A stretch of 56,204 bases of DNA, taken from positions 1 through 56,204 of IMG/VR virus record IMGVR_UViG_3300049098_000061; one strand, 5' to 3'. Under the pieces are notes generated by a model. It was not told the DNA's origin, did not search any database, and saw only the letters and a list, made by a program, of their open reading frames with translations. Source of the stretch: a virus. Made by a program: the position numbers and the translations under genes. This document shows positions 5,601-29,615 of the stretch, piece after piece. Every line of letters begins with the position of its first letter. The first letter of the stretch is position 1.

Positions 5601-5892
5601 CTCTGCCTCGATCCCATGCGTATCCTGCATACTCCTCGACATAGGGCGCTGCTACCTCCACAAAGTCCTCAGTCATCTTTGTCCTATATCTCTGATAGAT
5701 CGCATCGACATACTCGTCTCGTATGTCTTCATTCGCATAGTCGAAACAAGTTTCAATTACTTCCTCAGCTAGCTCCTCGGCGAGTGGTTTCCATATAGCA
5801 TAGATAGCTGCTTTCATGGCCATTGCCTCAATGCCAGCTACGCCGACTGCCTTGACTACTGACTCGGCTATATATGTAAGGGCAGTATTCAT
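2602..5892 (-). CDS. Polyvalent MuF-like minor head protein with zincin, nuclease-like and HipA/PI3K-type kinase domains
   Basis: A 1096-aa multidomain protein. Residues about 150-340 form a Mu gpF/SPP1 gp7-type head-morphogenesis domain with the metal-site hallmark DDRTCDVC (267-274) and HPRCRC (331-336). A zincin-like HELRH motif (467-471, HExxH) follows, with a possible third ligand at E530. Residues about 640-680 hold D651 and EVK (675-677), resembling a PD-(D/E)xK nuclease core. Residues about 800-1000 look like a HipA/PI3K-type kinase: KYIFKP (nucleotide-binding Lys), NADRHDQN (956-963) and IDHG (986-989). MuF proteins enter the capsid and can be ejected with DNA; carrying effector domains this way fits the known polyvalent-protein theme. 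Kinase substrate and protease activity are inferred. ATG 5892 has a strong AAGGAG site and overlaps the upstream gene. Confidence 0.88.
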   Translation of the reverse strand: MNTALTYIAESVVKAVGVAGIEAMAMKAAIYAIWKPLAEELAEEVIETCFDYANEDIRDEYVDAIYQRYRTKMTEDFVEVAAPYVEEYAGYAWDRGREDAFGYALSGLLEIQKSEKFVEYYDRPEYAEPFPNYYYGQGRTSSRIADRLWERHEINYFQKDQESIITDLVTVTGSTKANVQRTVKRWFTTTQGQYFDRFIVPETARLLSYEEGASLRSIGMKYKEFVKAEGYWSSVSEFNSESSKIFSQVQALHEMNVRSYTIESVLDDRTCDVCQFMNGSTWSVEEAVTKVYDMLISEADEAASINPFPPRSTPTDFDDPRESPYNLPPYHPRCRCSVRSTSRIVAMPQEILARPFDVGPRPTNKILTKVLSQYVDPPSKREVQALIDASGIPGTSRSLTRAERQILADAWDSVPLEEKKWAIRNKTNFQIFVEDGEDIVSRVEGEKIFINSKYFDKQRYGPDAIQHELRHALVNPQVVSARGGGNTVWRELTDAAGDTKKGWRSPTHVNSVYQLNGNRGIVAANAASDEFLAVIGDHYRKGMSMDELITSVRHKDYGIDVSDKITSTVVSSSSRWSAREAKNAVEYWWYTMDIDNSTLLSKKQMLAKLTHKPSTAQVRAVAIRNEVDLRDNLRIAGIKDVYQEGDNAPFDVWVGADPEKWYSGASKKKPTHVIEVKTIVRGKNNKITMHTESLARKKKEARKFGKKNTQVHTVVFDERNGKYYYKEGVGSFRLNSMKEVTIDDLQEIFGGKATAGTRQVAASTERLSEIRSASPKLQTRKASNLKTQGTIADGNVNEVRIVTVGKGKKKYIFKPINGETYWTNDKYLMQTIDEVNEHFNTNFVKFNQLQPEHWEWVEEEFGDVAEDFMVRRTIQNHNISLAQREAFSLDVAHRLGFDNENAIIPKFMLAEDTDGNIAGVLVEYITNSEVESVWQGMKMTDEQTFQMAVFDYLIGNADRHDQNWMRKIHTGRVTPRTRRTGTPVYIDHGYVMPGQLMDSGGISEWRCHAAQYFYEGIEYDLDPDWMQDMAVRIQTFVDKDATTLARSYGFDAEEIDALLRRGDSLAERLRGGNFSSVVMKHWEDGAYGAEDSYIGG

Positions 5893-7263: not shown

Positions 7264-8964
7264 TTACGCTGCCTCGGAAGTATCCTTAATCTCAAACAAG
7301 CTGTCAGGTTCGCTACTACTTGCCTTCTCCTCTAACTCTCTCTGCTCGCTGTGTTCTTTCAAACTCTTATGGAGTTTGCTGAATGCCTGATATACTTTTG
7401 CTGCTTGCGCTGGATCTTCGACTCCCTCTAGCAGACCGGTGATCGTTTGACTCGCACTACTAATCTCATCGACTTCCGCAAGCATACCTAACTTAGCTAG
7501 CTCAAGCACGATAGCTACCGGATAGTCTGCCCACTTCTGATCGTAAGTAGTAATGTCAAGTCCGAGTGTTCTGTTCGCTACTCGGATACCTTCGTTGATG
7601 GTAAACACTCCCAACTTGCCAAACTCTTTGAATCCTGCGATGATCTGCTCGCCGGTGATCAGTCTCGGCCCTTTACTCTTGAAGGCGTGATACTTAGCTC
7701 CTAACTCCTCCATGATGGTTAGGTTTATGATCTCGTCGAATAGTTCTCGCTCAGGAACAAAGACTTGCTCCTCGGCCACCATCTTACTACTGTCGGCAGT
7801 AGACTTGCTATAAGTATCTGCTCGACCTAGATACAATGGCGGAAGTCTAAACGATCCACGGACTCTATGCTCGCCTCCGTCAATGTACTGCACGAACATG
7901 GAGTCTTCCTTACGGGCAGTCGAGATCTCCTGTATAGTAATCTTAACAGAAGTATTTTGTCCAACGTCTCCCTCACTCTCTGCCTCAAGCACTAGTACTT
8001 TGTGAAAGTTTTCGACTCCTTTCTTTTGTACTAGTATTGACTTTATGTCCTCGACTGACTCGCTGGTGAGCTTGCCTCCACTAACCATGATCGCTAAGGG
8101 AGGTACTACCTGATTTTCAAACAGGTCATAGTTTACATAGTCTGCGGAGTGCAAGCCCATAGCATTCATAACATTTCCAGACCAACGAGGTACTCCGTAA
8201 GTATCGGTTCCTATTTTGAAATGTAGAATCTCTGTTGCCTCGTTTCCTTCCTTGTATCCATCCTCTCCCTTGTACTTACCGTTTGCGGCATTCATAGGAC
8301 GAGGATCTCCATACTCTTTAAACCATCGGTAGTCATTCCTTGCCGTACTCGTGATCATAACAAACTTACGAAAACGTTTGTTTACAGTAACAGTAATATC
8401 CTTACTGCCTCGCTTCATTTTTACTTTGATCTGCTGTGGATCTTTTTGCTTCTTCTGCAATCGGATATAGCGAGAGTCTGCCTGATAAATCAAACCTATC
8501 TCCCCACCAGTGGTGCGAATGATTTCAAGATACCCGTTACCTGTAGTCTCCATATCACTACGCATTTCCTTACGAACAGTAGTAAAACTTTGGTTCTCGT
8601 TTACCTTACTAAAGAAGTCGGTAAGTAGTTGCTTCTCCGCCAATACTTCTGTTGACTTCTCGTGTTCCGAATCTCCAGTATAGAAAAAGTTAATCCCGAA
8701 CCCGTCCGTATTTAGCGCCATAGCATCGATACACTGAGGGAGTATCGAGGAGTTCTCTACTATGCCGTACAACTTCACCGGATCATATGGTGGTTTAAGT
8801 ATGCTCTGTTCTTTCATCCAATCTGAATTGAAAGTACCTTCCTCGGTCAACTGCCTAGACTCTAGCCCTTCTCTATCAGCTTTAGCTAGCAAAGAATCTA
8901 AGAGTAACTCGGAAGTTAATGATTTCCTCATTTGCTCTCTTGTAGTCATCTCTCCTGTAGCCAT
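7264..8964 (-). CDS. Portal protein (PBSX/XkdE-like phage portal)
   Basis: Forms the dodecameric portal ring at the capsid vertex through which DNA is packaged and ejected. The order of conserved-looking blocks fits PBSX-type portals: LKPPYDPVKLYGIVENSS and CIDAMALNTDGFG early, then TGNGYLEIIR, and WSGNVMNAMG in the middle, then a helical C-terminal part ending acidic. About 566 aa is normal for this family. ATG 8964 forms an ATGA overlap with the polymerase stop and follows a GAGGAG run; GTG 8967 is an alternative. It sits directly behind the DNA polymerase rather than behind a terminase, and is separated from the MuF gene by the replication-initiator region, which is unusual. Confidence 0.88.
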   Translation of the reverse strand: MATGEMTTREQMRKSLTSELLLDSLLAKADREGLESRQLTEEGTFNSDWMKEQSILKPPYDPVKLYGIVENSSILPQCIDAMALNTDGFGINFFYTGDSEHEKSTEVLAEKQLLTDFFSKVNENQSFTTVRKEMRSDMETTGNGYLEIIRTTGGEIGLIYQADSRYIRLQKKQKDPQQIKVKMKRGSKDITVTVNKRFRKFVMITSTARNDYRWFKEYGDPRPMNAANGKYKGEDGYKEGNEATEILHFKIGTDTYGVPRWSGNVMNAMGLHSADYVNYDLFENQVVPPLAIMVSGGKLTSESVEDIKSILVQKKGVENFHKVLVLEAESEGDVGQNTSVKITIQEISTARKEDSMFVQYIDGGEHRVRGSFRLPPLYLGRADTYSKSTADSSKMVAEEQVFVPERELFDEIINLTIMEELGAKYHAFKSKGPRLITGEQIIAGFKEFGKLGVFTINEGIRVANRTLGLDITTYDQKWADYPVAIVLELAKLGMLAEVDEISSASQTITGLLEGVEDPAQAAKVYQAFSKLHKSLKEHSEQRELEEKASSSEPDSLFEIKDTSEAA

Positions 8965-11624
8965 CACTCCTCCTCTGGATTATACTCTAACATATCCGCT
9001 AAGTTGTAGCCTTCCTCTGCCTCGGCTACGAATGGAACAGATGGAGTAAATCCAAACTTGCTTTTAGTTTCAATATTTGTCATGCCGTCCAATATGACTC
9101 CTGCATAAGTGTTTACCTTATCAATATCGACTTCCCATACTATCGAGTCATGTATAAACAGAACAGGTTTGCACTCATTTCTTTTGTAACTCGGCCTCTT
9201 GATTACATTGTCTCCGCCCATTAAAGTATAGTCACTACTCGGGCCTTGGATAAGTACATTGATTCCAAATCTCTCTGCTTCTCTCTGCACTTGCTTATCG
9301 TCCGAGTAGATATTAGGAATAGGGATTCTCCTACCAAACACAGTAGTAACGCACCCTCGCTTCTCCATCTCTGCAATTTCTCTCTCGTGCCAAGGTGCTA
9401 TGTCGGGATATAGATTGAAAAATCCCTCTCTCCATTGTACTGCCTCGTAATCACTTAACCTAACTCCAAATCCCTGATAGGCATAGTTCCTTAATCCGTA
9501 GGCACTCATTAAGTAGATCAAACCGAAGTTGACTGCCTTTGCATTCTGCCTCATCTGCTTAATACTATCTCCATTCAATCCCATAGTATTAAGCTGTTCG
9601 ACCATACTCGCCTTCGTTCCTATGTCCACAGGATTACCGGCTAGCTCCGCACCTGTAAATAAATGGATGTCTCCCTCGCGTTTGAAGATCTCTTTCATTA
9701 CTCGATCTCCAGAGACTTCTGCTGTCCATCGTAGCTCGCTCATGCTATGGTCAGTCTCTAACAACTTCTTACCATCAGGAGCTACGATAAGTCGTCTAAT
9801 CAGTGCTGCGGGTTTACTTCTCTTTGGAAAATTTTGTACGCTAGGTCGCCTCGCTCCTGTTCTGCCAGAGCTAGTATAGGTGAGTGAGTAGGTGGGATAT
9901 AGTTTACCATCAGGAGCTATGTTCTCGTCGATCTGTTTTATATACCGACTTCGCAGAGTATGGTACTCGCCCCACTCCTGATAGATCCTTATCAACTCTT
10001 TTGCTTTCTCATTAATATCTCTGTCTAGTAGTACTTTCAATACTGCTTTGTTCACCTTTGGTAACTTCGTTTTTGGGGATAGCTCAAGGGGAGTTATCCC
10101 AAATCCTATGTCTATCTCCTCGTCCTTATCCTCGTACTTAAATAGGCAGTCCATCAAAATGGTACGTCTAGTCAGTACGAATTTATCGTAATGCTTACCC
10201 TTAACAGGCTCGGGACACATCTCCTTAAATTTCTCTACCGTCTCTGTAATATGATCGGCTATCTCCTCGGACACTACCGGTAACTGAAACTCGTCTACCT
10301 GTACTCCATTCCTTTCTAACTCATAGAGTATGCCCATCTCTATAGGATGAGCAAAATTGACATAGTAATTTAAAGTCTCTCTATCAATAGCTAGTTCTTT
10401 TATTTGAGCTACTGCTACTCGCAATGTGGAGATAGCATCGAAGCATGCTCGCCGATTGAACTTGTCTCTATCTACCCGCAGTTGGGTTAACATATCCTCT
10501 AGCTCTGTCTCTGTCCACTCCTCTTTATACGCAGATGAGATATTACAATAACTCTCTAGTAAGTATCCTAAATTTGCGTTGGAGTACCTCGGTGCATCGA
10601 AGGCGTGTGCGAGTAGGGATATGTCAATCAAATTTCCTTGGAATTGCTCTGGATTTGTAACATCTATTCCTAGTTGCTCAAACCTATGCATTTCATACTT
10701 CTGATTCATGTAGTACTTTTGAATATCTTTCCGAGCAACTAGCTCCGCTAGCTCCGCTACTTTCCTATCGAATCCCTCGCTCTTTTTTATTCCTACCCCT
10801 ACTACCTCTCTGCTCTTTTTTGTGCCTCCTCGCTCTACTAGGATTACCCTATCCTTATCTGGATCATTTATAGCACACTCCTCGTATAAAATAATATTCC
10901 AGCCTTCGGAGTCATTAGCAGCTACCGAATAACTTATGGTGATAGAGTCATCGGTAAACCATTTCAGCCCTTGCGTCTCCGTATCGATTGCAGTAACATA
11001 GCACGAGTCATCCTCGGATCTCTGAAACCCGCCATCTAGTAGATCTCTAATAGAGTCAGTCTCCATGTAGATAAAATCATCGTCATCCTTTACTTGAAAG
11101 TCGTTTTCTATAAACTCTCTCACGGTTCGGAATACTCGAATAAAGTTATCTTCCTCGTTTGCGTTACGGAGTATGTATGCAGGATGCCAGTTAGGTAGTA
11201 CCCAACAATGGAACTCGTCACTCCAATAGTAATTGCCTCGGGCTTTCTTAATGCCCTTCATGTTCATTACTTGCTGTAGAGCGATTGCTCCTAGCGGTAC
11301 TATTAATTTAGGATTTATGTGATAGATTATTGTCTCTAGATTAGTTCGACAACTTTTAAGGATGGAGTTTACTTCTTTTTGGGTGAGGTTATCTTTCTCG
11401 ATCATACACCTAGCAGAGTTTGCGAAAAAACAAATCTCTCTAGGGATTAATTGTCTATCTAATGTGTTTGTAAGTAGTCGCCCACTCCTACCAACAAACG
11501 GCACTCCCTCTTTAAGTTCCTCGTATCCTGGAGACTCGCCTACAAACATAATACTTGCCTCTAGGCTGCCCTTGTAATTAGTCTCCTTTTTACCTGCTAG
11601 TAAGCAGTCACAGTGATCGGCCAT
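8964..11624 (-). CDS. Family A DNA polymerase with N-terminal uracil-DNA-glycosylase domain
   Basis: 886-aa replicative polymerase. Residues 1-190 form a family-4-like UDG: GESPG (29-33), GVPFVGRSGRLL, HP (147-148), and cysteines C5, C7, C73 and C92 that could hold an Fe-S cluster. A 3'-5' exonuclease domain follows, with D214-x-E216 (AIDTETQ) and a later NQKYEMH block. The polymerase part has motif A DHSMSELR (from D625), motif B RQNAKAVNFGLIYLMSAYG (from R692) and motif C IHDSIVWEV (H825-D826), where the usual Glu after HD is Ser. UDG-polymerase fusions are known in SPO1-like phages. ATG 11624 follows AGGGAGGG and has its own promoter 30 bp upstream. Its stop overlaps the portal start. Confidence 0.93.
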   Translation of the reverse strand: MADHCDCLLAGKKETNYKGSLEASIMFVGESPGYEELKEGVPFVGRSGRLLTNTLDRQLIPREICFFANSARCMIEKDNLTQKEVNSILKSCRTNLETIIYHINPKLIVPLGAIALQQVMNMKGIKKARGNYYWSDEFHCWVLPNWHPAYILRNANEEDNFIRVFRTVREFIENDFQVKDDDDFIYMETDSIRDLLDGGFQRSEDDSCYVTAIDTETQGLKWFTDDSITISYSVAANDSEGWNIILYEECAINDPDKDRVILVERGGTKKSREVVGVGIKKSEGFDRKVAELAELVARKDIQKYYMNQKYEMHRFEQLGIDVTNPEQFQGNLIDISLLAHAFDAPRYSNANLGYLLESYCNISSAYKEEWTETELEDMLTQLRVDRDKFNRRACFDAISTLRVAVAQIKELAIDRETLNYYVNFAHPIEMGILYELERNGVQVDEFQLPVVSEEIADHITETVEKFKEMCPEPVKGKHYDKFVLTRRTILMDCLFKYEDKDEEIDIGFGITPLELSPKTKLPKVNKAVLKVLLDRDINEKAKELIRIYQEWGEYHTLRSRYIKQIDENIAPDGKLYPTYSLTYTSSGRTGARRPSVQNFPKRSKPAALIRRLIVAPDGKKLLETDHSMSELRWTAEVSGDRVMKEIFKREGDIHLFTGAELAGNPVDIGTKASMVEQLNTMGLNGDSIKQMRQNAKAVNFGLIYLMSAYGLRNYAYQGFGVRLSDYEAVQWREGFFNLYPDIAPWHEREIAEMEKRGCVTTVFGRRIPIPNIYSDDKQVQREAERFGINVLIQGPSSDYTLMGGDNVIKRPSYKRNECKPVLFIHDSIVWEVDIDKVNTYAGVILDGMTNIETKSKFGFTPSVPFVAEAEEGYNLADMLEYNPEEE

Positions 11625-13659: not shown

Positions 13660-14118
13660 CTACACCGCAACTCGTCTATCCGTTCCCTCAACGATTGATT
13701 CTCTCGGAGTCTTCTTTCTATTTTCAAAACCCCTCCAGTAGAGTATCTCTTTTTTAAACTCTGAAAATCCTCCTCGTAGATATTGATTGCTCGTAAGCTC
13801 TGCAATCACTTCAATCTTAATGGACGCGAAGTATACTACTGTAGACTGAATACTCTTGATCTGTTTGGTTGCCTCCTCGTTATCTCTTATGAGTTTAAGG
13901 AAGCCTTTGCTCCATTTTAAATACCCATAATAGTCGATAACAAATTGCGTCTCGCTGTCCACGATAGCGCCTAAGTACTCGGCATACTTAGTATAGGCAA
14001 GTTTTCCTTTTCTAACGTTAACTAGCGCACTCTTGCCTATAACACCGCTAGTCACTCCCTTGCTTATTACTTCAGACTCGAACAGTCTTTGGTATTTCAC
14101 AAAATTTAGTTTCCCCAT
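13660..14118 (-). CDS. Hypothetical 152-aa helical protein
   Basis: No family recognised. Predicted mostly alpha-helical, basic, no membrane span; one hydrophobic patch (YFASIKIEVIAELT). It overlaps the end of the upstream glycosyltransferase gene by 13 bp and lies between two glycosyltransferases, so it probably belongs to the same operon. The final 20 or so residues are polar and Arg/Glu-rich. A 60-bp gap follows before the GT2 gene. Confidence 0.6.
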   Translation of the reverse strand: MGKLNFVKYQRLFESEVISKGVTSGVIGKSALVNVRKGKLAYTKYAEYLGAIVDSETQFVIDYYGYLKWSKGFLKLIRDNEEATKQIKSIQSTVVYFASIKIEVIAELTSNQYLRGGFSEFKKEILYWRGFENRKKTPRESIVEGTDRRVAV

Positions 14119-15083
14119 ATCTTTTCGACTTTGCGCTTTTCGAGATAAGTAGTAAGAATATGAACTAGCTCCCCTATTCTATGTCTGTCAAGATGTCTCT
14201 TGTTTATTATGCTTACTCCTCTGTTTACTATCTCCTGTAGCTCGTCCATGTTCCCATTCCAAATACTCTTTGCTACATTGACTAGATTCTTTTTATTGTA
14301 GAATTTACACACTTCCTCGCCATCGAATAATTCATTATGTCCATTAAAATAATCGGTCAGTAGTAACGCTCCACTCCCCATAATCTCAAATGTCTTAGCA
14401 GGAGGCGAGCTTAGTCTTCCACAATCACTAAAACAGCATCGGTACTTAGCGACACATGCGGGGTATCTCGCGTGCCCTACTCGCCCTTCGATGTTTATAA
14501 GTCCGTGACTTTTTAAAGCGTACACTGCCTTGAATCTGTTCTGATAGACTCCTGACCATTTCATTCTCCGCTCGGCCCCTCGTCCAATGAACCCAATCTT
14601 ATACTTCCGGTACTTTAAAGGCACTCCTTGATTTTTTATAAACTCCCTTTCCGATACTGAGAACGGCAGCCATACACTAGGAATGTCTCTTAGTTTATCT
14701 ATTATGTATCCTCGCTGGATTATTAAGTTGATCCTATGCTCTATTAGCCAAGATTTTTGGTTGGGAGTCATAGCCCACCAATCACACTCAATACTGACTT
14801 TGGGGATACTACTACTCGCAAATCCTTTCGGAATCCATGCGTATACATTAGTCATCGGATAGATCATGACTACATCTGGCTTGAACTCCGATACTAGATC
14901 GTCAAAAGTTATTTTACTATGATAAAATTTTTTCCCAAAAGGAGTAGGCACTCCCGGCCCATAGGTAATTAACTTTATGTTAGGTAGCTCGTTTAGTTTT
15001 GAGACAAATCCAAAATGCACTCTTCTCGCTACGTTGTTAGAGTCTCCGTTAGGGTTGTCTCGATACAGGAATAAAATTCTCAT
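14106..15083 (-). CDS. GT-B fold glycosyltransferase (CgeB/family 1-like)
   Basis: 325 aa. The N-terminal half has a Rossmann start (RILFLYRDNP) and DVVMIYPM. The C-terminal half has IGFIGRGAERR and the donor-site block PPAKTFEIMGSGALLLTDY, typical of CgeB-like glycosyltransferases that use a [K/R]-x-F-E-x-x-[A/G]-x-G motif. A second member of the same kind (19.4-20.4 kb) shares KYFEVMASGTLLLTN. Soluble cytoplasmic enzyme; sugar and acceptor unknown. Overlaps the sulfotransferase gene by a 4-bp junction. Confidence 0.82.
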   Translation of the reverse strand: MRILFLYRDNPNGDSNNVARRVHFGFVSKLNELPNIKLITYGPGVPTPFGKKFYHSKITFDDLVSEFKPDVVMIYPMTNVYAWIPKGFASSSIPKVSIECDWWAMTPNQKSWLIEHRINLIIQRGYIIDKLRDIPSVWLPFSVSEREFIKNQGVPLKYRKYKIGFIGRGAERRMKWSGVYQNRFKAVYALKSHGLINIEGRVGHARYPACVAKYRCCFSDCGRLSSPPAKTFEIMGSGALLLTDYFNGHNELFDGEEVCKFYNKKNLVNVAKSIWNGNMDELQEIVNRGVSIINKRHLDRHRIGELVHILTTYLEKRKVEKIWGN

Positions 15084-15877
15084 AGGTAGTTTAATCGTCT
15101 AAGCATTACTAGAGGCTCGCCCTTAAAGACATACCTCCAATTCGGCAACTCCTGTTTCCATCTTCCTATATTGTTCTTTCTTACTTTCTGATAAAATCCA
15201 GATAGTAGCGGTTCGTGATCTACTCCAATCCATGCTGCTAGTTCCGTAAGTACTCGCAATGGTTCTGAGATTAGTTGCTCAAATCGTATGGTGTAGCAAT
15301 ACTCTGGCTTTATTTTCTTTGCGAACTCTAGCCATTCTTTAACTCCCTCGTACCATAGACTAGCTCCGCCTCCAAATCTGTACCTCCTACGAGAACACAC
15401 ATTGTCTCGACCATCTCGCAGTACATATATAACTTTGAAGTCAAGCCCCAAATCCCGTAGCCTTCTTAGAGTCTCTACTTCTAGTACTTTGTCTCCCCAA
15501 TACTTATATTTTGAAAATAGAATCGTTTCTACTGTCCATATCCACTCTCTTCTATCTTCTTGGTCTGCTATACTTCGGAAGTATTCTTTACGACACTTAT
15601 TGAAAAAGTCATCGTCAAAAGTAGGAGGTACATCCCAATAATGCTCCTCGCTCTGGTTCCACTTCGTCTTTAAGGATAGCTTACGGAAGTAGTCTTCAGC
15701 AGTAGTAGGGTTTCTTTTTATTGAGGATATTCTAGTGCCGGTCGGAGAGTCATACATCAAAAACTCATTGGTGATCCAAATATCAGGATGAGAATTGACC
15801 ACTCGCTGAGTGAATGTTGTACCACTTCGACCTACTCCATGAACTATAAGTCTAGGCAACAGTCCAATTCCTTTCAA
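15080..15877 (-). CDS. PAPS-dependent sulfotransferase
   Basis: Transfers sulfate from PAPS to a glycan or other acceptor. The 5'-phosphosulfate loop is visible near the N-terminus (VHGVGRSGTTFTQRVVNSHP), and the VIYVLRDGRDNVCSRRRY block near residues 135-152 corresponds to the 3'-phosphate-binding motif (RDGRD). About 265 aa, as expected for a single-domain enzyme. The start is uncertain: TTG at 15877 or 15859, both overlapping the GSCFA gene, the latter with AAGGA 9 bases upstream. Sulfotransferases are rare in phages; its place among glycosyltransferases suggests sulfated sugars (inference). Confidence 0.82.
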   Translation of the reverse strand: MKGIGLLPRLIVHGVGRSGTTFTQRVVNSHPDIWITNEFLMYDSPTGTRISSIKRNPTTAEDYFRKLSLKTKWNQSEEHYWDVPPTFDDDFFNKCRKEYFRSIADQEDRREWIWTVETILFSKYKYWGDKVLEVETLRRLRDLGLDFKVIYVLRDGRDNVCSRRRYRFGGGASLWYEGVKEWLEFAKKIKPEYCYTIRFEQLISEPLRVLTELAAWIGVDHEPLLSGFYQKVRKNNIGRWKQELPNWRYVFKGEPLVMLRRLNYL

Positions 15878-16712
15878 ACATCTCCATGATACTCGTTATG
15901 ACTTTCCACCTCAAATGCCTACCGTCGTCTCCTCGCCATCTATCTGCTATCTCGGCAGCTATCTCATAGGAGGGGAAGTAGTAAACGTTTTCAGTCTCTC
16001 GCATAAACAAATCAGCCCCTACTCGCACGATAGACTTAGAGACACTATTAGCGGTGATAACGTCTACATCATCTCTGAATGTTGCATTCAAAGGAACAGG
16101 AGATACAGTCAAGATTATTTTAGCTTCTGAGTCATGCTCTCGTAGTAGTCTATACATACTCGCTAGATCGTTTCTAACGTCCTCGGGAGTCTGGATATAG
16201 AACTCGTGCTTATTCAGATCCAATACTCTATTAGGTGGTACTTGAAAGAAAGTAGCTCCGTCAACTTTACTTCTCCAAGTCTCTGCCAAACCTAGAGTAA
16301 GTATGATCACTTCTGCTTCCTCGATAGCTTTTCTTGACTTGGCTCTATGTTCATTGAATGAACGTCTCGCATCTTTGATAAGATAGGAAGTACCTCGCCT
16401 ATACGGATCAACTAAATGCATATCGTCCACAGGCCACCATCTTTCCGCTACTTCCCAATCACTCTTAAACGAGTATTCAAATATCTGTCTCATGCACGCA
16501 CTGTTGTAGACAAAATCCCAATGTGCCGAGGCTACTATCTTGTTTCGGATAGGCTCATGCACTAGATAGTTGTACCCATGCTTAAGCAGTCTATTGCTTA
16601 TATGAAAAGCGAAACAGCTCCCCATAGAAGTTAACTTAGTTTCTTTTGTTATTAACTTCTCGCCTCGCTCAAACTTACTCATCCTATTTTTAAGCTGCGG
16701 GAATAACTCCAT
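15852..16712 (-). CDS. GSCFA-domain protein (SGNH-hydrolase-like)
   Basis: 286 aa. Residues near 30 read MGSCFAFHISNRL, the family-defining G-S-C-F-A block. Later segments ILTLGLAETW and ILTVSPVPLNATF match the conserved parts of GSCFA/SGNH-type proteins, often found in polysaccharide loci and thought to act as carbohydrate esterases or acyltransferases. The Ser of GSC would be the nucleophile position by analogy. No signal peptide. It overlaps genes on both sides, indicating co-translation with the acyltransferases upstream and the sulfotransferase downstream. Confidence 0.8.
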   Translation of the reverse strand: MELFPQLKNRMSKFERGEKLITKETKLTSMGSCFAFHISNRLLKHGYNYLVHEPIRNKIVASAHWDFVYNSACMRQIFEYSFKSDWEVAERWWPVDDMHLVDPYRRGTSYLIKDARRSFNEHRAKSRKAIEEAEVIILTLGLAETWRSKVDGATFFQVPPNRVLDLNKHEFYIQTPEDVRNDLASMYRLLREHDSEAKIILTVSPVPLNATFRDDVDVITANSVSKSIVRVGADLFMRETENVYYFPSYEIAAEIADRWRGDDGRHLRWKVITSIMEMFERNWTVA

Positions 16713-17220
16713 GTGGTTTAATCATCCTCGCCGGTGCTCCAGCATATACTCCTTTTGCTATTAGAGATCTAGTTACTACTGATCCTGAGCCTACTATTAT
16801 TCCATCGCTTATCTCGACTCCGGGATTTACATGGACTCCAGATGCGAGAAATACTTTACTACCTATCTTGCAAGGCATGTGTGTTCCATCAGGTGTCTGA
16901 TGTAGTAATGTTACTCTAGGGCCGATAAAAGTATCGCTCCCGATTACTACTCCTGGGGATATTATCGAGTGACACTTTATTATTACTTTGTCGCCTATTC
17001 TACAATCTTTCCCTAGTCGAGTATAACTTCCTATGACTACATCCGTACCGATCTTACTACCTTCCGGTATCTTAACGTAGTCACTTATTTTTATATTAGT
17101 TTCGATTACTACATTCTTTTCGATAAAACAAAATTTTCCTATAGCCACATCTCCTCCGTGTTTAAAGGTGGGGTGAATATGACTACTCTCTCCACCTAAA
17201 TAGCTATTACCACTTTCCAT
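16690..17220 (-). CDS. Left-handed beta-helix (hexapeptide) acyl/acetyltransferase
   Basis: 176 aa made almost entirely of hexapeptide repeats of the [LIV]-G-x4 type (IGKFCFIEKNVVIE, IGTDVVIGSYTRLGKD, IGDKVIIKCHSIIS, IGSDTFIGPRVTLLHQ), ending in a capping helix and G-A-P-A-R, as in sugar O- or N-acetyltransferases (WbbJ/WbpD-like). It works as a trimer using acyl- or acetyl-CoA or acyl-ACP. It starts at ATG 17220 after AAGGAG. Third of three consecutive hexapeptide transferases behind LpxC. Confidence 0.82.
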   Translation of the reverse strand: MESGNSYLGGESSHIHPTFKHGGDVAIGKFCFIEKNVVIETNIKISDYVKIPEGSKIGTDVVIGSYTRLGKDCRIGDKVIIKCHSIISPGVVIGSDTFIGPRVTLLHQTPDGTHMPCKIGSKVFLASGVHVNPGVEISDGIIVGSGSVVTRSLIAKGVYAGAPARMIKPHGVIPAA

Positions 17221-18007
17221 CCCAGTCTCCTTCCCTACGTGCAGGATTGCCGTAGTATACTCCTGGCTCGTCTATTGTTCTTACTACATTTGATCCCATG
17301 CCAATTTTTACTTCACTGCAAACTCTTACGTTATCTCGTATCACAGTATGCATACCGACTAGTACATTGTCTCCTAGTGTAGCCGAGCCTCCGACACAAA
17401 CGAACGGAGTGAATGCACAATACTTGCCGGTCTTAACATTATGTCCTATGTTCACATAACTACCGATATGATTATATGCTCCAATGCGAGTAGAGCCTAG
17501 CGAAGCTCTATGAATAGTAGCATACGGGCCGATCTCTACTCCCTCGTCTATGACTACATTCCCCATATGCTTCATTTTTAAAGGACGCTCCATAGTCTTA
17601 GGATCATAGACTATTCGCATTGCATCTACTCCTATCATTGCAGTAGGATGACAAACAACAGTAGGTGAAATCAAGTTCACTCTAGGAGGCTTATTACTAT
17701 TAAGATAGTTGTGTACTCTGATAAATTTATACTCGACCTCATCGAAATAAAAAGGTCGCATCTTGCCTAGTAGATCTTTCTCTAGCTTCTGAACTATCGA
17801 CATTAGTTTAGGAGCGCACATGGTTATGATTGTCTTATTGCCAGAACGTAACGTATCTACTAGCCGTACTAACCACTCGTTGTTCTTAACAAAAGTGATA
17901 GAGTTATCCTCTAGCTCGTCTGCTGCACAAGTCGTCTCCATACCTCGTATGATGTTCAAGAAGTCTTCAAAAGGTAACTCGGTCGGATTAAAAGTCTCCC
18001 TCATCAT
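17207..18007 (-). CDS. lpxD-like: LpxD-like UDP-3-O-acylglucosamine N-acyltransferase family protein
   Basis: 266 aa with an alpha/beta N-terminal domain (about 1-110) and a C-terminal hexapeptide beta-helix. The helix block VEIGPYATIHRASLGSTRIG then YVNIGHNV closely follows the LpxD pattern; H189 in IGHNV is at the place of the LpxD catalytic His. LpxD adds a hydroxyacyl chain to the glucosamine amine freed by LpxC, and a lpxC-type gene lies two genes upstream. Against a strict LpxD call, the protein is shorter than the usual ~340 aa and ends in YYGNPAR like sugar acetyltransferases. ATG 18007 (or 18004) follows AGGAGG. Confidence 0.72.
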   Translation of the reverse strand: MMRETFNPTELPFEDFLNIIRGMETTCAADELEDNSITFVKNNEWLVRLVDTLRSGNKTIITMCAPKLMSIVQKLEKDLLGKMRPFYFDEVEYKFIRVHNYLNSNKPPRVNLISPTVVCHPTAMIGVDAMRIVYDPKTMERPLKMKHMGNVVIDEGVEIGPYATIHRASLGSTRIGAYNHIGSYVNIGHNVKTGKYCAFTPFVCVGGSATLGDNVLVGMHTVIRDNVRVCSEVKIGMGSNVVRTIDEPGVYYGNPARREGDWDGKW

Positions 18008-18594
18008 AATCTTTCCTCCTTTGGTACTTTGCCTACTACTCTTGCCGGATTGCCATAAGCTATACAGTCTTTTGGGATATCTTTTGTTACTAGTGATCCT
18101 GCCCCGATCATTGCGTTAGTGCCTATGTAAACATCAGGTAGTACGGTCACTCCTATAGCTATCCTCGCCCCGTCTCCTATTTTATACCCCTTTACTTCAA
18201 AGTCAAGGCAGTCTCGCTTATGGCACATTTTAGTATCATTAGCTCCCACAAACAGAGGAGCTATAAAAACATTCCTACCGATAGATACTCCTCTAGTTAT
18301 GTGACATTGAGCATGAATTAAAGTTCCGTCGAGTACAGTACTTCTTCCCTCAAAGACTGTCAGATGCCCAATTACGCAACCATTGTAAATTCTAGTATGT
18401 GGACGTAGTACTGTCCCGTGTCCGATGAAAGTGTTTTTGCCTACTAGACAATTCTCCTCTATCCGTACACAGCTAGAGATCCTCGCCCCGTCTTCTATTA
18501 CTGATCCTTTTTTAATAATAGTAAACGGCTCGATAGTTACTCCGCTTCCAATTTCTACTTCTAAATCAATTACTGCGCTTGAGTGTATACCCAT
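18004..18594 (-). CDS. Hexapeptide acyl/acetyltransferase (LpxA/WbpD-like fold)
   Basis: 196 aa, left-handed beta-helix from residue 1: HSSAVIDLEVEIGSGVTIEP, then FTIIKKGSVIEDG, IEENCLVGKNTFIGHG, with an extended loop and C-terminal VGAND...VLPDVYIGTNAMIGAGSLV. It ends in YGNPARVVG, usual for nucleotide-sugar N-acetyltransferases. A role as the LpxA-type first acylation step is possible from its place beside LpxC, but I do not see the extra C-terminal helical domain of true LpxA. It overlaps the LpxC end by 29 bp. Confidence 0.78.
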   Translation of the reverse strand: MGIHSSAVIDLEVEIGSGVTIEPFTIIKKGSVIEDGARISSCVRIEENCLVGKNTFIGHGTVLRPHTRIYNGCVIGHLTVFEGRSTVLDGTLIHAQCHITRGVSIGRNVFIAPLFVGANDTKMCHKRDCLDFEVKGYKIGDGARIAIGVTVLPDVYIGTNAMIGAGSLVTKDIPKDCIAYGNPARVVGKVPKEERL

Positions 18595-19390
18595 TTAAAA
18601 TGCCCTTTACTAGCTCGTGGTGCATAGCATGTCCAGAGTTACATGCTGTTATCTTTCCTTTGATACTGAACCCAAACAATAAAGACAAGTCTCCTAGTAT
18701 GTCTAATACCTTATGTTTTACACACTCGTCTCGTTCAAACGATTCTGTGTCATTTATATTGATAGTGTTTACTCCGAACTCTGTGCCTTGTGCTTTCTTC
18801 TGCTTTCTCAAACCATTTACATACTTCTTGTCTGCAAAGGTTCTGGCTCTTGCTACCTCGGAGTAAGCGCCCTCGACATGCTTATACACATAAGCACCTA
18901 TTATATTCTTATGCCAATCTAGCGAGCATTCGATAACTAGCTCCTTACTACGAGCTATAGAAATATATCTATTTCCATTCACAATGCTAAAAGGTTTAGT
19001 TATTACTAGTCCTATTCTGGCGGAGTCTTCCTGATCCTCTACCCCTGCCTCTTGAATAGCGTCATAGAATATACTCGCACTACCATCTCCTATTGGTAGC
19101 TCATTGCCTTTAATTTCCACAATTGCATTGTTTATAAACAGACCATAGAAGCACGAGAGTAAATGCTCGACAGTCTCTATCTTGTCTCTTCCTTCCCCTA
19201 AAGTTGTATTGGAGAGACTATCGCCTAAACTATAAATATTGGCATTGTACCACGACTCCTCGCCCCTAAATTGGATACCACTATTAGGGACGGACGGAAG
19301 TATCTTTATCGAACAACGTTTTCCGGTATGCACACCGAGTCCGTCTATTACTACTTCTCGCTTTAGTGTTCTCTGTAGTATTGGTATCAC
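18566..19390 (-). CDS. lpxC: LpxC, UDP-3-O-acyl-N-acetylglucosamine deacetylase
   Basis: Zinc-dependent deacetylase of the committed lipid A step. The 274-aa protein aligns end to end with bacterial LpxC: N-terminal QRTLKREVVIDGLGVHTGK; TVEHLLS with zinc ligand H76 and catalytic E75; VEIKGNELPIGDGSA; ARTFA; the second zinc site KHKVLDILGD (H226, D230); and SGHAMHH (H254, general acid). All ligands and catalytic residues are present, so it should be active. A little shorter than E. coli LpxC (305 aa). It is embedded in a phage operon behind a glycosyltransferase, which is very unusual, and is followed by hexapeptide acyltransferases, one LpxD-like. Confidence 0.93.
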   Translation of the reverse strand: MIPILQRTLKREVVIDGLGVHTGKRCSIKILPSVPNSGIQFRGEESWYNANIYSLGDSLSNTTLGEGRDKIETVEHLLSCFYGLFINNAIVEIKGNELPIGDGSASIFYDAIQEAGVEDQEDSARIGLVITKPFSIVNGNRYISIARSKELVIECSLDWHKNIIGAYVYKHVEGAYSEVARARTFADKKYVNGLRKQKKAQGTEFGVNTININDTESFERDECVKHKVLDILGDLSLLFGFSIKGKITACNSGHAMHHELVKGILNGYTLKRSN

Positions 19391-20633: not shown

Positions 20634-21908
20634 CTATTTTGTTTTAAAATTCAGGACTGCCGATACGCCCGTAAACAAATGACTTAATTGATCGGAGAAC
20701 TTTGACTCGTTATTCTTATCGTCGTAAGCAGTGGCAGCAAAGTAATAAGTCACTCCTTTGGTAAAACCCGTAAGCGTATACTCCGTCACGTTCTTAACGT
20801 CTACTACTGTATCGTATGAGTAGTAGTCTGGATCACATACTGGATCTGGCGGATCAGGAGTTTCCGTACAAATGTACTCTTTGGGATCTGTGTCTGGTAC
20901 TTCTTCCCGCTTAATGCAAGTACAGTACTTCTCCCAACTATCTTTGCATTTTTGTTGACTCTCTGTTAACTCACCACTATCAGGTAGTCTACACTTATCT
21001 TTTATTATCGCGGGAACGGCATCGGGAAGCGATGGATCGTATCTACTCGTTACTCCATAGTATATCTTATATCCTGCTAAGTCTTCCTCGACATTAGCAT
21101 CCCACGCAAAAGTAATAGATGGAGTAGTAGGCTTCTGAGCAAATCCTGCATTGTGGTTTTGAGTTACTTCCGCTTGCGTAAGTACTGTGGAGTAAATAGC
21201 TACGAGGTATATCTCACCTAGCCATGTCCTCATGTCTCCTGACTGCCAAGTAATCTCATTGAATAGGGCAAACTCGCAAGTCATATCCCAAGTGCTTCCG
21301 TCTCCTGGTACTGCCTCGCTTGCTCTCTCTACTCCATCAATATAAATTTTGGCCTCGCCGCTCGGCGCTCTAGTGTATACTACATGACTAAGAACAGGAC
21401 TAGCAGCTATACTCCCTGCCGGTGACGTTACCATTATATCGCTTCCATTGCTATTCGTTTGACTAGTCCTAAATCTCGGATGATAAGTATCTCCTGCCTG
21501 TCCTAAAGTAAAGTTTCTTATACTACTATCTTTAGAGAGAGTTACTATACGAGCAGGGCCAGATTGAGTATTATTTAAAGGTTTAACCCATACCTCGATA
21601 GTTATTCCTTTGGAGAAAAAATCGTTAGTCTTTACCTTTGTAATGTCTCCACTGGCCTTGACTAGAGTTGCCTCTTTTACTCTAAGCCCTCCCTCTATCC
21701 ATTCTACTTTGGACGAGTCTGGTATCGTTAAATTAAACGTAGGCTCTACTCCCGATTTGTCATTGACTACTGTACCACTTCCTTCCTCGAAATCGTATAG
21801 GAGAATTAAATCCCTAGTTACTACTTGTCCCTCCGCTATAAAAGTAAAGACTAGTCCTAAGCCTATAAGTATAGCCATGACTAGTAGTATTCTATTTAGA
21901 GTTACCAT
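20634..21908 (-). CDS. Membrane-anchored or secreted LamG + fibronectin-III protein
   Basis: 424 aa. A hydrophobic N-terminal segment (residues about 5-27) is a signal peptide or anchor. Residues about 35-265 form a LamG/concanavalin-type beta sandwich (LILLYDFEEGSGTVVNDKSG, FSKGITIEVWVKP, AKIYIDGV). Residues about 275-410 form an FN3 domain (ITFAWDANVEEDLAGYKIYYG) carrying a Cys-rich insertion with at least seven cysteines, likely disulfide-bonded in the periplasm. The FN3 part is related to that of the 23.5-24.2-kb protein. Such a product would sit on the host envelope rather than in the virion unless the signal is not used; a role in surface masking or superinfection exclusion is a guess. 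Confidence 0.78.
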   Translation of the reverse strand: MVTLNRILLVMAILIGLGLVFTFIAEGQVVTRDLILLYDFEEGSGTVVNDKSGVEPTFNLTIPDSSKVEWIEGGLRVKEATLVKASGDITKVKTNDFFSKGITIEVWVKPLNNTQSGPARIVTLSKDSSIRNFTLGQAGDTYHPRFRTSQTNSNGSDIMVTSPAGSIAASPVLSHVVYTRAPSGEAKIYIDGVERASEAVPGDGSTWDMTCEFALFNEITWQSGDMRTWLGEIYLVAIYSTVLTQAEVTQNHNAGFAQKPTTPSITFAWDANVEEDLAGYKIYYGVTSRYDPSLPDAVPAIIKDKCRLPDSGELTESQQKCKDSWEKYCTCIKREEVPDTDPKEYICTETPDPPDPVCDPDYYSYDTVVDVKNVTEYTLTGFTKGVTYYFAATAYDDKNNESKFSDQLSHLFTGVSAVLNFKTK

Positions 21909-23206
21909 ATATCACTCTCCCCAAATATCGGCAAGTAGAACCGATTATAAATGTTATCCCAATTATATCTTTTACGATTAAACGTTTTACTAGCTACTAT
22001 TTCGTTCCTTTGCATTCTCCCTATTATCAAATGAGCCAATGCCTCGTAGTATTCTTTCTCTGTGTTTGGTACTTGCAAATTTTTCTCGAAGCTCCCGAAC
22101 TCTGCATAAATACCATTACCTCCTTGCGTCTCCCACAACATAGGTAGCGAGCGATTCAGAACCATCTCTACTCCACACAATGCTGCTTCCGGTGCTACTA
22201 GCCCAAACGACTCGTGGTGAGTAGGAAAGATAAACAAGTTAGTCATTAGCTGCAACTCTCTCAGCATACGCCTTGGAATACCAGTAGCAAACTCGTCTCT
22301 CCACTCACTTGTAAAAATTACTTCCTCGTTGATTTTCATCTTTGCTAAACGGATTCGCTTGTAGTATCCAGCAAGATCCTCTTTCCTCGCTTTCCCTGTA
22401 GCCCACTGGTTAGCAATGACTAGGCAATTAGTAAAGTTCAGCTTTTTGAACTCTCTAAATATCGTGATTATCTTGTCTACTCGCTTTGCTCCTAACCTAT
22501 CTGTACTCGCAGGGTAAACCATAGTCACATCCCCCTGCATAATTAAAGGAAAGTCTTCTATAAAGTTATACGTTTCCTCGCTGAACTCGAAGTAACTTCG
22601 GTAGTCTTTTATGTGAGGTATTACTACGACATGGTGAGCATTGGTGTTGAACTGCTCGGCTACTAGCTGTTGATTCGCTTTGTTTGGATATACTATCCTA
22701 TGCCTATCTCCCCACTTCCTTATATCCCACCAAGGAAACTTCGCAGTAGGCACCGAGTGTACCCAATGCATCCACGCTACTTTACGTATGACCGGAGTCT
22801 TACATGCCTCGATTACTCCAAGTCCATAAGGTAAGTTCCATCCAGTGAAGATCCAATCATGACTTATCATGATAGTAATATCATTCTCGACTATTGCCTT
22901 AGACAATACTTCTCCGGTTTTCTTTACTACTTCCTTATGGTCTTCTGATAGTTCTTCTTTGCGGTAGTCAGTTAGGTCTGCTCTAGGTATGATATTGTGG
23001 AGAGTGTAGTTTATATCAGTCCACGGATCGTGCTCGAATAACTTTTGTTTTTCTTTCTCGTCAAAATTCTCACAAACAAATAAATGGACTTCGTGTCCAT
23101 TACTAGTGAGCATTCTAACTTGATCCTCGACAATACCAGTTAGCGAGTATCCGTGATTTATGAAGGTGAAACTAGTTAGTATTCCTACAGCGTGTTTTTT
23201 AGGCAT
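21902..23206 (-). CDS. GT4-family glycosyltransferase
   Basis: 434 aa GT-B glycosyltransferase. N-lobe: GILTSFTFINHGYSLTG followed by VRMLTSNGHEVHLFV. C-lobe: MTNLFIFPTHHESFGLVAPE, the E-x7-E signature of GT4 enzymes (E in HHESFGLVAPEAA). It uses a nucleotide-sugar and retains configuration; the substrate is unknown. The ribosome-binding site GGGAG lies inside a perfect 8-bp hairpin just upstream of ATG 23206, suggesting regulated translation. First enzyme of the envelope cluster after the small secreted-protein genes. Confidence 0.87.
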   Translation of the reverse strand: MPKKHAVGILTSFTFINHGYSLTGIVEDQVRMLTSNGHEVHLFVCENFDEKEKQKLFEHDPWTDINYTLHNIIPRADLTDYRKEELSEDHKEVVKKTGEVLSKAIVENDITIMISHDWIFTGWNLPYGLGVIEACKTPVIRKVAWMHWVHSVPTAKFPWWDIRKWGDRHRIVYPNKANQQLVAEQFNTNAHHVVVIPHIKDYRSYFEFSEETYNFIEDFPLIMQGDVTMVYPASTDRLGAKRVDKIITIFREFKKLNFTNCLVIANQWATGKARKEDLAGYYKRIRLAKMKINEEVIFTSEWRDEFATGIPRRMLRELQLMTNLFIFPTHHESFGLVAPEAALCGVEMVLNRSLPMLWETQGGNGIYAEFGSFEKNLQVPNTEKEYYEALAHLIIGRMQRNEIVASKTFNRKRYNWDNIYNRFYLPIFGESDIW

Positions 23207-24788: not shown

Positions 24789-24960
24789 CTTCTCTCCTAA
24801 CTACTCTAGAGATACTTATTCTCTGAATGATTTTTGTAACTGCTGCTCTCCTCGTAATGAACTGAGGGAGTATGGATATGATAGGCTCTATATAAACAGC
24901 AATGCCGTATCCACGAGTTACTATTAGTGAGTTGCTACCGTATCCTCTAGTTACTATCAT
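24781..24960 (-). CDS. 59-aa protein with duplicated VTRGYG motif
   Basis: 59 codons from ATG 24960, joined to the preceding fibre gene by an ATGA overlap. It starts with an internal duplication: IVTRGYG at residues 2-8 and again at 13-19, then a hydrophobic segment (IAVYIEPIISILPQFI) and a basic C-terminal beta-like part. I recall similar tiny VTRGYG-type proteins among phage tail genes, without known function. Probably a small structural or assembly peptide (inference). Confidence 0.6.
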   Translation of the reverse strand: MIVTRGYGSNSLIVTRGYGIAVYIEPIISILPQFITRRAAVTKIIQRISISRVVRREDD

Positions 24961-26990
24961 ACTCGTTGTCTTTCAAAAACATTCGTCATTGTAGGACTAC
25001 CACCGGAGTCGAACAGATTGAATCTCGCTACTTCTGTTGTGTTATCCTCTTTGTAAAACACCATCTGATTAGCAACTATTCTCCATCTGCCTCCCTCAAT
25101 ATCCATAATAAATTCTAACTCGTTGAGTATGACTGAGGCATCTAGAAAAGCACTAGTGTCTACATCACATCCAACTCCCGAATTGTCTGCCTCGACTGTT
25201 CCTACTCCTATTAGCTGAATCTTTCCTGCTATACAAGTAGAGTCAATTATGATATTTCCAGAGTTGCAGTTTATGACTGTTCGACTACTCCCCGTCTTAT
25301 CTTTTAATTTTAAGTTACCATTCCAGTTTACTACATTGAGAGCAGAGTCTCCAATAGAAAACTCCACTTCGTTAGTAGGCTCGCCTCCACCTGTGCCGTC
25401 TAGAATGGTGGCCCAACTACCAAACGATATTTCTGCTCCTTCATTAAAAGCTACTACATTCATAATACCAAGGAAATTTTTGAGACTGTCTACCGAGCAG
25501 TTCTCGATCAAGGTTTGACAAGAACCGCTAAACTCTCCACTTATATTCACATTGCGGAAAGTAGTCTTATGAGCAGTACAACCGGCGTCTAGTACTACAT
25601 CGGTTCCCATTTTACCTTCGGTCTTTATGATCTTATTACTTATATCTTGAGTGGCTCCTACAGTAATCCCAGTACGCAGAACTAGAGTCTCCACATTACC
25701 ATAATTCATTATGGATAATGCATCCGCGAGATTATCTGATGGCGAGTAAGTAGTACCAATCGGCCATGCTACTCCACTAGATCCATTGACTGTATCCAGT
25801 ACAACTACTCCTAAGTATGTTGTGCCTCGCAGTGCAGTCGCAGCCGAGCCGGGAGTAACATGAGTAATCAAGTTCTCATCCCACACCTGATCTGCCACTA
25901 CTTCTGGATTTATTAGCTCATCGGTATTGACTGTCGCTCCCACACTGTTGTCTACAACGGTTCCTACTCCTCGAATGTTTATAGTTCCTGCGGTGACATC
26001 AGAGTCGAGGTATACTACTCCACTGTTCAAATCAACTCCTACTTCCTCGCTCCCGCTTTTGTTTGATAGCCTTATCTTTCCGTTGTAGTTTCTTAGCGCT
26101 AGTGTCTTTCCCGATCCGTTTAAGTTTATTTCTGGAATCCCTTGATCCGGATTGCCTGAGTAGCAATCCATGAATGCTGCGTCTCCCAATAGAAGTATCG
26201 TACTTCCGTCTAGTATGCATCTGTCCATAGTTCCTTGCACATAGTCAATGTCAAGTACTCTGCACTCCTTTAGAGTACTACTTCCGTCCAGTGTGCCTTG
26301 AATAGTAGCATCGTAATACTCACAATCGTCCACGGTAGCTGCTGCGTCAAGGGTGAGTGTAGTCTTACTTATACTACTTCCGACAAAATGAAAGCCAGAA
26401 AAATCCACACCACTAGTCAAGGTAGCGTCTCCGAGGATGAAGAAAGTAGTCAACCCATTGGCAACTGCTATATCCATAGCATCACTCCAATTATTAACAG
26501 GAGCCATACTCGTTCCTACAGGATACTCGGTGCCTGAGTGAGTAGAAGTAAAGTCTACAGTTACTCCTCCCTCAAACGATGAGTGTTGCAGTGCTGCCTG
26601 TTCCTGCAAAGTCGCAGAGGCCGAGGCTGTTCGGTCAACAGAAGTGTAAGCAGTAGGAAGTCTCGGGTCTATACTCAGACCGTCCTCGTCAACTGCTACC
26701 AAATTTCCTCCCGAGATAATACACAATTCCCAACTAGGTCCACTCCTCGCCTCAAATGCAAGTACAGCATTTTGGAGAGTTGCGGTTATTCCTACATAAG
26801 TAGTGCCACCGAGGAACTCCTTTCCTGCTGCGTCTATCAAATGAGCAGAGTCTATATTATGAAGGAGTTCCTCGTTGTATCGGCAAGTATCTACTAGGTC
26901 TTGAATCGTTATCTCATCGGAGGGGGCAGCCACGGTTATTACTCGTGGACTACTCTCCCAATCAATTGAAACGTCCGTTCTTATTGTCAT
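24957..26990 (-). CDS. Tail appendage/fibre protein, beta-helix-rich
   Basis: 677 aa. N-terminal about 130 residues (VDTCRYNEELLHNID, FLGGTTYVGITATLQNAVL) look like an attachment domain. The rest is repetitive and beta-rich, with Gly/Asp/Asn turns (GVDFSGFHFVGSSISKTTLTL, ILDGSTILLLGDAAFMD, NLNGSGKTLALRNYNGKI), typical of right-handed parallel beta-helix phage appendages that bind or cut host polysaccharide. Two similar halves are visible: TYVGITATLQNAV and TYLGVVVLDTVNG lead blocks that both include PVGTSMAPVNNWSDAM and PIGTTYSPSDNLADAL. No catalytic motif recognised. Confidence 0.75.
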   Translation of the reverse strand: MTIRTDVSIDWESSPRVITVAAPSDEITIQDLVDTCRYNEELLHNIDSAHLIDAAGKEFLGGTTYVGITATLQNAVLAFEARSGPSWELCIISGGNLVAVDEDGLSIDPRLPTAYTSVDRTASASATLQEQAALQHSSFEGGVTVDFTSTHSGTEYPVGTSMAPVNNWSDAMDIAVANGLTTFFILGDATLTSGVDFSGFHFVGSSISKTTLTLDAAATVDDCEYYDATIQGTLDGSSTLKECRVLDIDYVQGTMDRCILDGSTILLLGDAAFMDCYSGNPDQGIPEINLNGSGKTLALRNYNGKIRLSNKSGSEEVGVDLNSGVVYLDSDVTAGTINIRGVGTVVDNSVGATVNTDELINPEVVADQVWDENLITHVTPGSAATALRGTTYLGVVVLDTVNGSSGVAWPIGTTYSPSDNLADALSIMNYGNVETLVLRTGITVGATQDISNKIIKTEGKMGTDVVLDAGCTAHKTTFRNVNISGEFSGSCQTLIENCSVDSLKNFLGIMNVVAFNEGAEISFGSWATILDGTGGGEPTNEVEFSIGDSALNVVNWNGNLKLKDKTGSSRTVINCNSGNIIIDSTCIAGKIQLIGVGTVEADNSGVGCDVDTSAFLDASVILNELEFIMDIEGGRWRIVANQMVFYKEDNTTEVARFNLFDSGGSPTMTNVFERQRV

Positions 26991-27153
26991 TAGTCAGCGC
27001 CTTCTTCTCTTCTAGTGCTGAAATCATTCTCCGATATTCTCGGATGGTAGTATGCTCTTGCTCGATTGCATCCTCGAATATCTTAACATTTTTCTTACAT
27101 TTCTGGATACCCGTTTTAAGGGCATCCAGATCGTACTCGACATTATTACTCAT
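26962..27153 (-). CDS. Small coiled-coil protein
   Basis: 63 aa, almost entirely a charged helix with heptad spacing (LDALKTGIQKCKKNVKIFEDAIEQEH, YRRMISALEEKKAL). AAGGAG lies 4 bases before ATG 27153, and the gene lies between two fibre genes, overlapping the downstream one by 29 bp. Similar short coiled coils flank phage fibre genes elsewhere and may serve as chaperones or trimerisation aids; here that is inference. Confidence 0.65.
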   Translation of the reverse strand: MSNNVEYDLDALKTGIQKCKKNVKIFEDAIEQEHTTIREYRRMISALEEKKALTNDNKNGRFN

Positions 27154-27164
27154 ACTTCTCCTTG

Positions 27165-29600: not shown

Positions 29601-29615
29601 ATTACTTCCTCCTAT

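Follow-up and report, generated by a model that had tools for sequence, protein, structure and literature searches.

Why would a phage carry lpxC? LpxC, a major antibiotic target, catalyzes the step at which lipid A synthesis is committed and regulated. In a 56,204-base virus record without a terminal repeat (the window, meaning the whole stretch of DNA that was analyzed), an LpxC-family gene lies beside a gene for an LpxD relative. The original prediction proposed, among other readings, that the two proteins perform consecutive steps of lipid A synthesis, or that they provide an acylated sugar to a different glycan. We asked which of these readings fits the protein, its neighbors and its counterparts in other phages.

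LpxC active site and fold in a siphovirus contig

The gene at 18566..19390 (minus strand, GTG start) encodes a 274-residue LpxC-family (PF03331) zinc N-deacetylase. The protein scored well above the Pfam cut-off for PF03331 (E = 5.5e-63; 213.4 bits vs. 27) and below that of the NCBIfam equivalog TIGR00325 (154.8 bits vs. 187.25). Family matches of this protein and its hexapeptide neighbors had E-values of 1e-13 to 1e-65 and are not chance matches. Its alignment with solved LpxCs spanned the full length at about 30% identity, and the nearest bacterial LpxC was 36–37% identical. Numbered from the GTG, residues E75, H76, H226, D230 and H254 align with the general base, zinc ligands and acid of E. 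coli LpxC, exactly as first predicted. E. coli LpxC residues K239 (the UDP-phosphate residue), D246, T191 and F192 are also kept, as is the ARTF motif. The AlphaFold model (33 sequences; pLDDT 90, pTM 0.90) has the two-domain LpxC fold, and its best matches in the PDB were LpxC structures (TM 0.89; 5u3b, 1yh8). In its fold, zinc ligands, general base and acid, Lys239 and ARTF motif, the window protein thus resembles LpxC (EC 3.5.1.108, PF03331; UDP-3-O-acyl-GlcNAc deacetylase), and its identification as a member of the LpxC family is confirmed.

One reading is that a captured lpxC is drifting to inactivity; in its favor, the branch of the window protein in LpxC trees is long, at 2.66 and 3.22 changes per site. 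We consider such decay very unlikely, because the 274-codon frame is open and translationally coupled, and every catalytic residue is kept at a best identity of about 36%. Second LpxC copies in Nitrospirota were considered as a match and rejected, as these are frames of 411–496 aa, unlike the window LpxC. No viral protein in BFVD matched the window LpxC fold, and scans of viral contigs with the window LpxC alone, the adjacent glycosyltransferase, the DNA polymerase and the portal found no relatives.

The window is a real siphovirus contig in which lpxC lies deep inside, and the gene is no contig-end artefact. PHROG matches covered primase, head morphogenesis, a DnaD-like loader, portal, DNA polymerase A and tail assembly, as well as tape measure, major tail, head-tail adaptor, major capsid protein, protease and DnaB helicase, and all PHROG-identified genes are on the minus strand. 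Tail genes flank the lpxC operon on one side and the DNA polymerase and portal genes on the other, so that phage hallmark genes (portal, DNA polymerase, tape measure, major capsid and tail) surround lpxC on the same contig and strand. Stenotrophomonas siphophages, DLP_5 among them, have major capsid proteins about 50% identical to that of the window. Capsid proteins 85–96% identical to it occur on IMG/VR fragments; an lpxC match was present in 0 of the 20 such records checked, but no fragment exceeds 29 kb and absence from relatives is not implied. No bacterial LpxC is close enough to suggest a host (best identity at most 37%), and no cassette-bearing relatives were found that could point to one.

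Several other features of the contig were recorded. The portal and DNA polymerase genes overlap by 4 nt (7264-11624), so that a head gene and a replication gene are unusually intermixed. Four large tail-region proteins (611–811 aa; 24957-31802 and 34853-36688) had no PHROG or Pfam matches, and a 1096-aa protein (2602-5892) has a short head-morphogenesis-like stretch at residues ~230–340 and no assignment over the rest of its length. PADLOC gave no defense-system match among the eight proteins scanned.

Misassembly with host DNA was named in the original prediction as grounds for rejection; we regard misassembly or host contamination as having a negligible chance. The concern is a real one, since several public 'phage' lpxC records look like host DNA, including that of Acinetobacter 'phage' MD-2021a. 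In the window, however, lpxC has no cellular lpxC neighbors; it lies on the same strand as the phage genes, overlaps its neighbors, is similar in GC to the phage genes on both sides, and has only a 36–37% identical nearest bacterial LpxC.

Among the public records, lpxC was noted in 'phage' entries CAKLQH020000013.1, CAKLQF020000016.1, AFYI01000001.1, MT836264.1 and MT837229.1. The first of these is bacterial chromosome, with the murC-ddlB-ftsQAZ-lpxC run annotated for MD-2021a; the other four are suspected to be host DNA. Similarly, 'lpxD' matches in Helicobacter phages may be the host gene that flanks the metK-lpxD integration hot spot (PMC11321410). Phage- or virome-borne lpxD has been reported (PMC10284932, PMC8401523), and an lpxC read count appears in a paper on cellular contamination of viromes (PMC3877843). 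The original prediction knew of no described phage system of this kind. In line with this, we found no description of a phage LpxC in open PMC full text, a scope that gives no proof of absence.

Acyl tunnel and C-terminal tail of phage LpxCs

LpxC relies heavily on the 3-O-acyl chain of its substrate. In E. coli LpxC, the fatty-acyl tunnel is formed by Met195, Ile198, Phe212 and Val217, and Phe194 lies in the hexose pocket (PMC10254716). The window LpxC has D, K and E at tunnel-region positions 194, 195 and 211 (E. coli numbering), and no gap interrupts the alignment between the RTF motif and position 211. Charged or amide residues thus occupy 3 of the 7 scored tunnel positions, compared with at most one in each of 113 bacterial LpxCs (83 chosen for similarity to the window protein and 30 further Nitrospirota). 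The loop from the Asn214 equivalent to His238, before the second zinc histidine, is also shortened, with 18 residues in the window compared with 23–25 in 112 of the 113 bacterial proteins. Judged from sequence only, the window LpxC lacks the hydrophobic acyl-chain tunnel of Insert II. Given the reliance of LpxC on the 3-O-acyl chain, this damaged tunnel suggests that the window LpxC acts on a different substrate. On the other hand, the enzyme might tolerate a few such changes or compensate for them.

The C-terminal tail also differs. The E. coli LpxC signal for degradation by FtsH sits in this tail. After the catalytic His, the window LpxC has only 20 residues, and the six phage LpxCs have 15–24, whereas all 113 bacterial LpxCs have at least 22 and mostly about 40. 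The idea in the original prediction that a phage LpxC escapes degradation control gains some support from this short tail, which is found in every phage LpxC. In sum, the window protein departs from LpxC (EC 3.5.1.108) in its identity of at most 37%, its charged residues at 194, 195 and 211, a loop 6 residues shorter, its short tail, its score under the TIGR00325 cut-off and its place in a glycan operon.

The search of phage genomes for lpxC that had been called for returned matches in the Vibrio jumbo phages K566 and K567, which are isolates with 255-kb genomes, and in four IMG/VR phage contigs. The K566/K567 LpxC resembles that of the window in being phage-encoded, with catalytic residues kept and a degenerate Insert II, and GT8 and radical-SAM genes lie within ~10 kb of lpxC. 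In contrast to the window, it is only 24% identical to the window protein and lies beside NAMPT and a PagP-annotated protein (PagP is a lipid A acylation enzyme), and no hexapeptide transferase was recognized in the ten neighbors scanned. In K566 (L002, 11535-12801), lpxC directly adjoins the PagP-annotated gene, an annotation that a Pfam scan did not confirm; the tunnel region of the K566 LpxC is degenerate and could not be reliably aligned.

The LpxCs of the four IMG/VR contigs (L007, 2568-3407; L008, 9989-10828; L009, 1044-1865; L010, 9980-10822) are likewise phage-encoded, with catalytic residues kept and short C-terminal tails. Unlike the window protein, they have an essentially normal acyl tunnel (in L009 one position is charged, which is also seen in some bacterial LpxCs), and lpxC lies among replication genes rather than glycan genes. 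On three of the contigs it is beside a UvsW-like helicase, primase or topoisomerase II, which hints at T4-like phages, and on the fourth it is beside a phage DNA polymerase. No acyltransferase was identified near lpxC on any of the four.

The phylogeny proposed in the original prediction was also run: a quick tree scattered the phage LpxCs, but an AU test did not reject a single phage clade (p-AU 0.7). We therefore favor neither independent acquisition by each phage lineage nor a single origin.

Beta-helix acyltransferases and the glycan operon

Downstream of lpxC are three left-handed beta-helix (hexapeptide) acyltransferases, all on the minus strand. The first (18004..18594; 196 aa) is NeuD-like, with the sugar N-acetyltransferase QdtC as its closest solved relative. 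The second (17207..18007; 266 aa) is related to LpxD. The third (16690..17220; 176 aa) is QdtC/acetyltransferase-like and lies outside the region covered by the original prediction, which had correctly placed a hexapeptide transferase and then an LpxD-like protein with an IGHNV histidine. The 196- and 176-aa proteins resemble sugar N-acetyltransferases of the NeuD/PglD/QdtC type in beta-helix fold and size, yet the window proteins all fall under the NCBIfam cut-offs, with the three beta-helix proteins scoring 80–96 bits against TIGR03570 (NeuD/PglD; cut-off 160.8).

The 266-aa protein shares with LpxD, the lipid A N-acyltransferase, the C-terminal beta-helix and the region of the catalytic His. 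H189 in its IGHNV motif aligns with the catalytic His239 of E. coli LpxD, and across 398 Pseudomonadota genomes it matched best to the C-terminal beta-helix of full-length LpxD; the bacterial genome scan found no bacterial homologs of it. It is shorter than LpxD (266 vs. ~340 aa) and lacks several LpxD features. Its N-terminal half gave no Pfam match to the uridine-binding LpxD N-terminal domain, and residues 1–110 have no assignment. In the alignment, E. coli His276 is replaced by Asn. The protein stops just past the beta-helix, without the C-terminal helices that hold ACP. The structure model (two sequences) likewise showed only the beta-helix, with residues 1–110 at low confidence. Scores fell under both LpxD cut-offs (102 bits vs. 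242.5 for TIGR01853; 111 bits vs. 207 for NF002060). LpxD is nevertheless its better match (111 bits, compared with 82 for NeuD), below the cut-off in each case, and this kinship is specific enough that the substrate may yet be related to lipid A.

Overlaps of 1–29 nt join each gene to the next from 20403 to 13660, lpxC included, and all genes of the region are on the minus strand. Upstream, a glycosyltransferase (PF13524; 19390..20403; 337 aa) ends in a stop codon that overlaps the lpxC start (taGTG). Beyond the acyltransferases follow a GSCFA-family protein (PF08885, a family match only; 15852..16712; 286 aa), a sulfotransferase (PF13469; 15080..15877; 265 aa), a second PF13524 glycosyltransferase (14106..15083; 325 aa) and a GT2-like glycosyltransferase (PF00535; 12632..13597; 321 aa). 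Just upstream of the overlap run is a virion-protein-like LamG/ConA-lectin domain protein (20634..21908) with a weak fn3 match and a hydrophobic N-terminus, and next to it a probable GT4-fold glycosyltransferase (21902..23206; phrog_2170, Pfam below cut-off). No lipid A gene other than LpxC and the LpxD relative was recognized in the operon context, and no sugar-nucleotide synthesis genes are present.

Scans of viral contigs found no close relative with the whole cassette. On a 6.2-kb phage contig without lpxC (L034, 11-2006), an LpxD-like protein (35% identical) is followed by methyltransferase-like and sulfotransferase-like genes and then by tail genes, including a tape-measure-like frame; these neighbors were named from their translations. 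This arrangement indicates that the LpxD-derived acyltransferase belongs to phage glycan cassettes both with and without lpxC.

A candidate deacetylation and re-acylation pathway

From their sequences, these enzymes most likely deacetylate and re-acylate a sugar nucleotide that goes into a phage-encoded glycan. Of the options in the original prediction, the acylated sugar for another glycan is the one that we favor, on the basis of the altered tunnel and the glycan neighbors, and we give even chances to a pathway in which the window LpxC deacetylates a UDP-N-acetylsugar that is then re-acylated. We infer the substrate, order of steps and acceptor as follows. The diverged zinc deacetylase would remove the N-acetyl group of a UDP-N-acetyl-hexosamine whose 3-O-acyl chain is absent or short. 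At least one of the three beta-helix acyltransferases, including the LpxD-derived one, would then add a different acyl group to the freed amine or to a neighboring hydroxyl; all three could use the free amine. Glycosyltransferases and the sulfotransferase would build the modified sugar into a glycan, whose acceptor may be a virion tail or decoration protein or the host surface. The product is probably an unusual sugar coat, not ordinary lipid A.

Mycobacterial hosts have no lipid A, and we know of no LpxC-type deacetylation and re-acylation in mycobacteriophage virion glycosylation. PMC12619734, which cites Freeman et al. (2023) on this glycosylation, describes phage glycosyltransferases that are thought to decorate virion proteins, as is proposed for the window.

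Alternatively, the window LpxC could be a true lipid A enzyme that performs the committed step during infection free of host proteolysis; together with a change of N-acylation by the LpxD-like protein, this would shift the supply or acyl pattern of lipid A. The LpxC fold, the complete active site and the LpxD-derived neighbor fit this reading of consecutive lipid A steps, as do the short tail (20 residues vs. at least 22 in the 113 bacterial proteins, most ~40) and the four IMG/VR phage contigs with a near-normal tunnel and no acyltransferase identified nearby. It is weakened by the altered tunnel and shortened loop, the missed equivalog cut-offs, the LpxD features missing from the 266-aa protein (N-terminal domain, H276 equivalent and C-terminal helices) and the glycan genes around it. 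A lipid A role is thus possible but not favored, and we consider it somewhat unlikely.

The same chemistry could instead serve conversion of the host surface, where an altered O-antigen, capsule or lipid-linked glycan would block superinfection or hide a receptor. Serotype-converting phages use glycosyltransferases, acyltransferases and sulfotransferase gene types, and these are the gene types of the operon. However, no flippase or polymerase and no integrase were recognized among the window proteins scanned, and the gene arrangement looks lytic-type, with tail genes on one side of the operon and replication genes on the other. We judge host-surface conversion unlikely, and it overlaps the favored glycan pathway, from which it differs only in the acceptor.

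In our tentative overall picture, which is possible rather than probable, phages have repurposed LpxC for a deacetylate/re-acylate pathway that makes a sulfated glycan, and in other lineages LpxCs with normal tunnels and trimmed tails drive lipid A synthesis outside host proteolysis. The window suggests that the LpxC fold has a second use, outside lipid A. The phage LpxCs with short tails further raise the testable idea that phages might take over outer-membrane synthesis by evading the degradation that keeps host LpxC in check.
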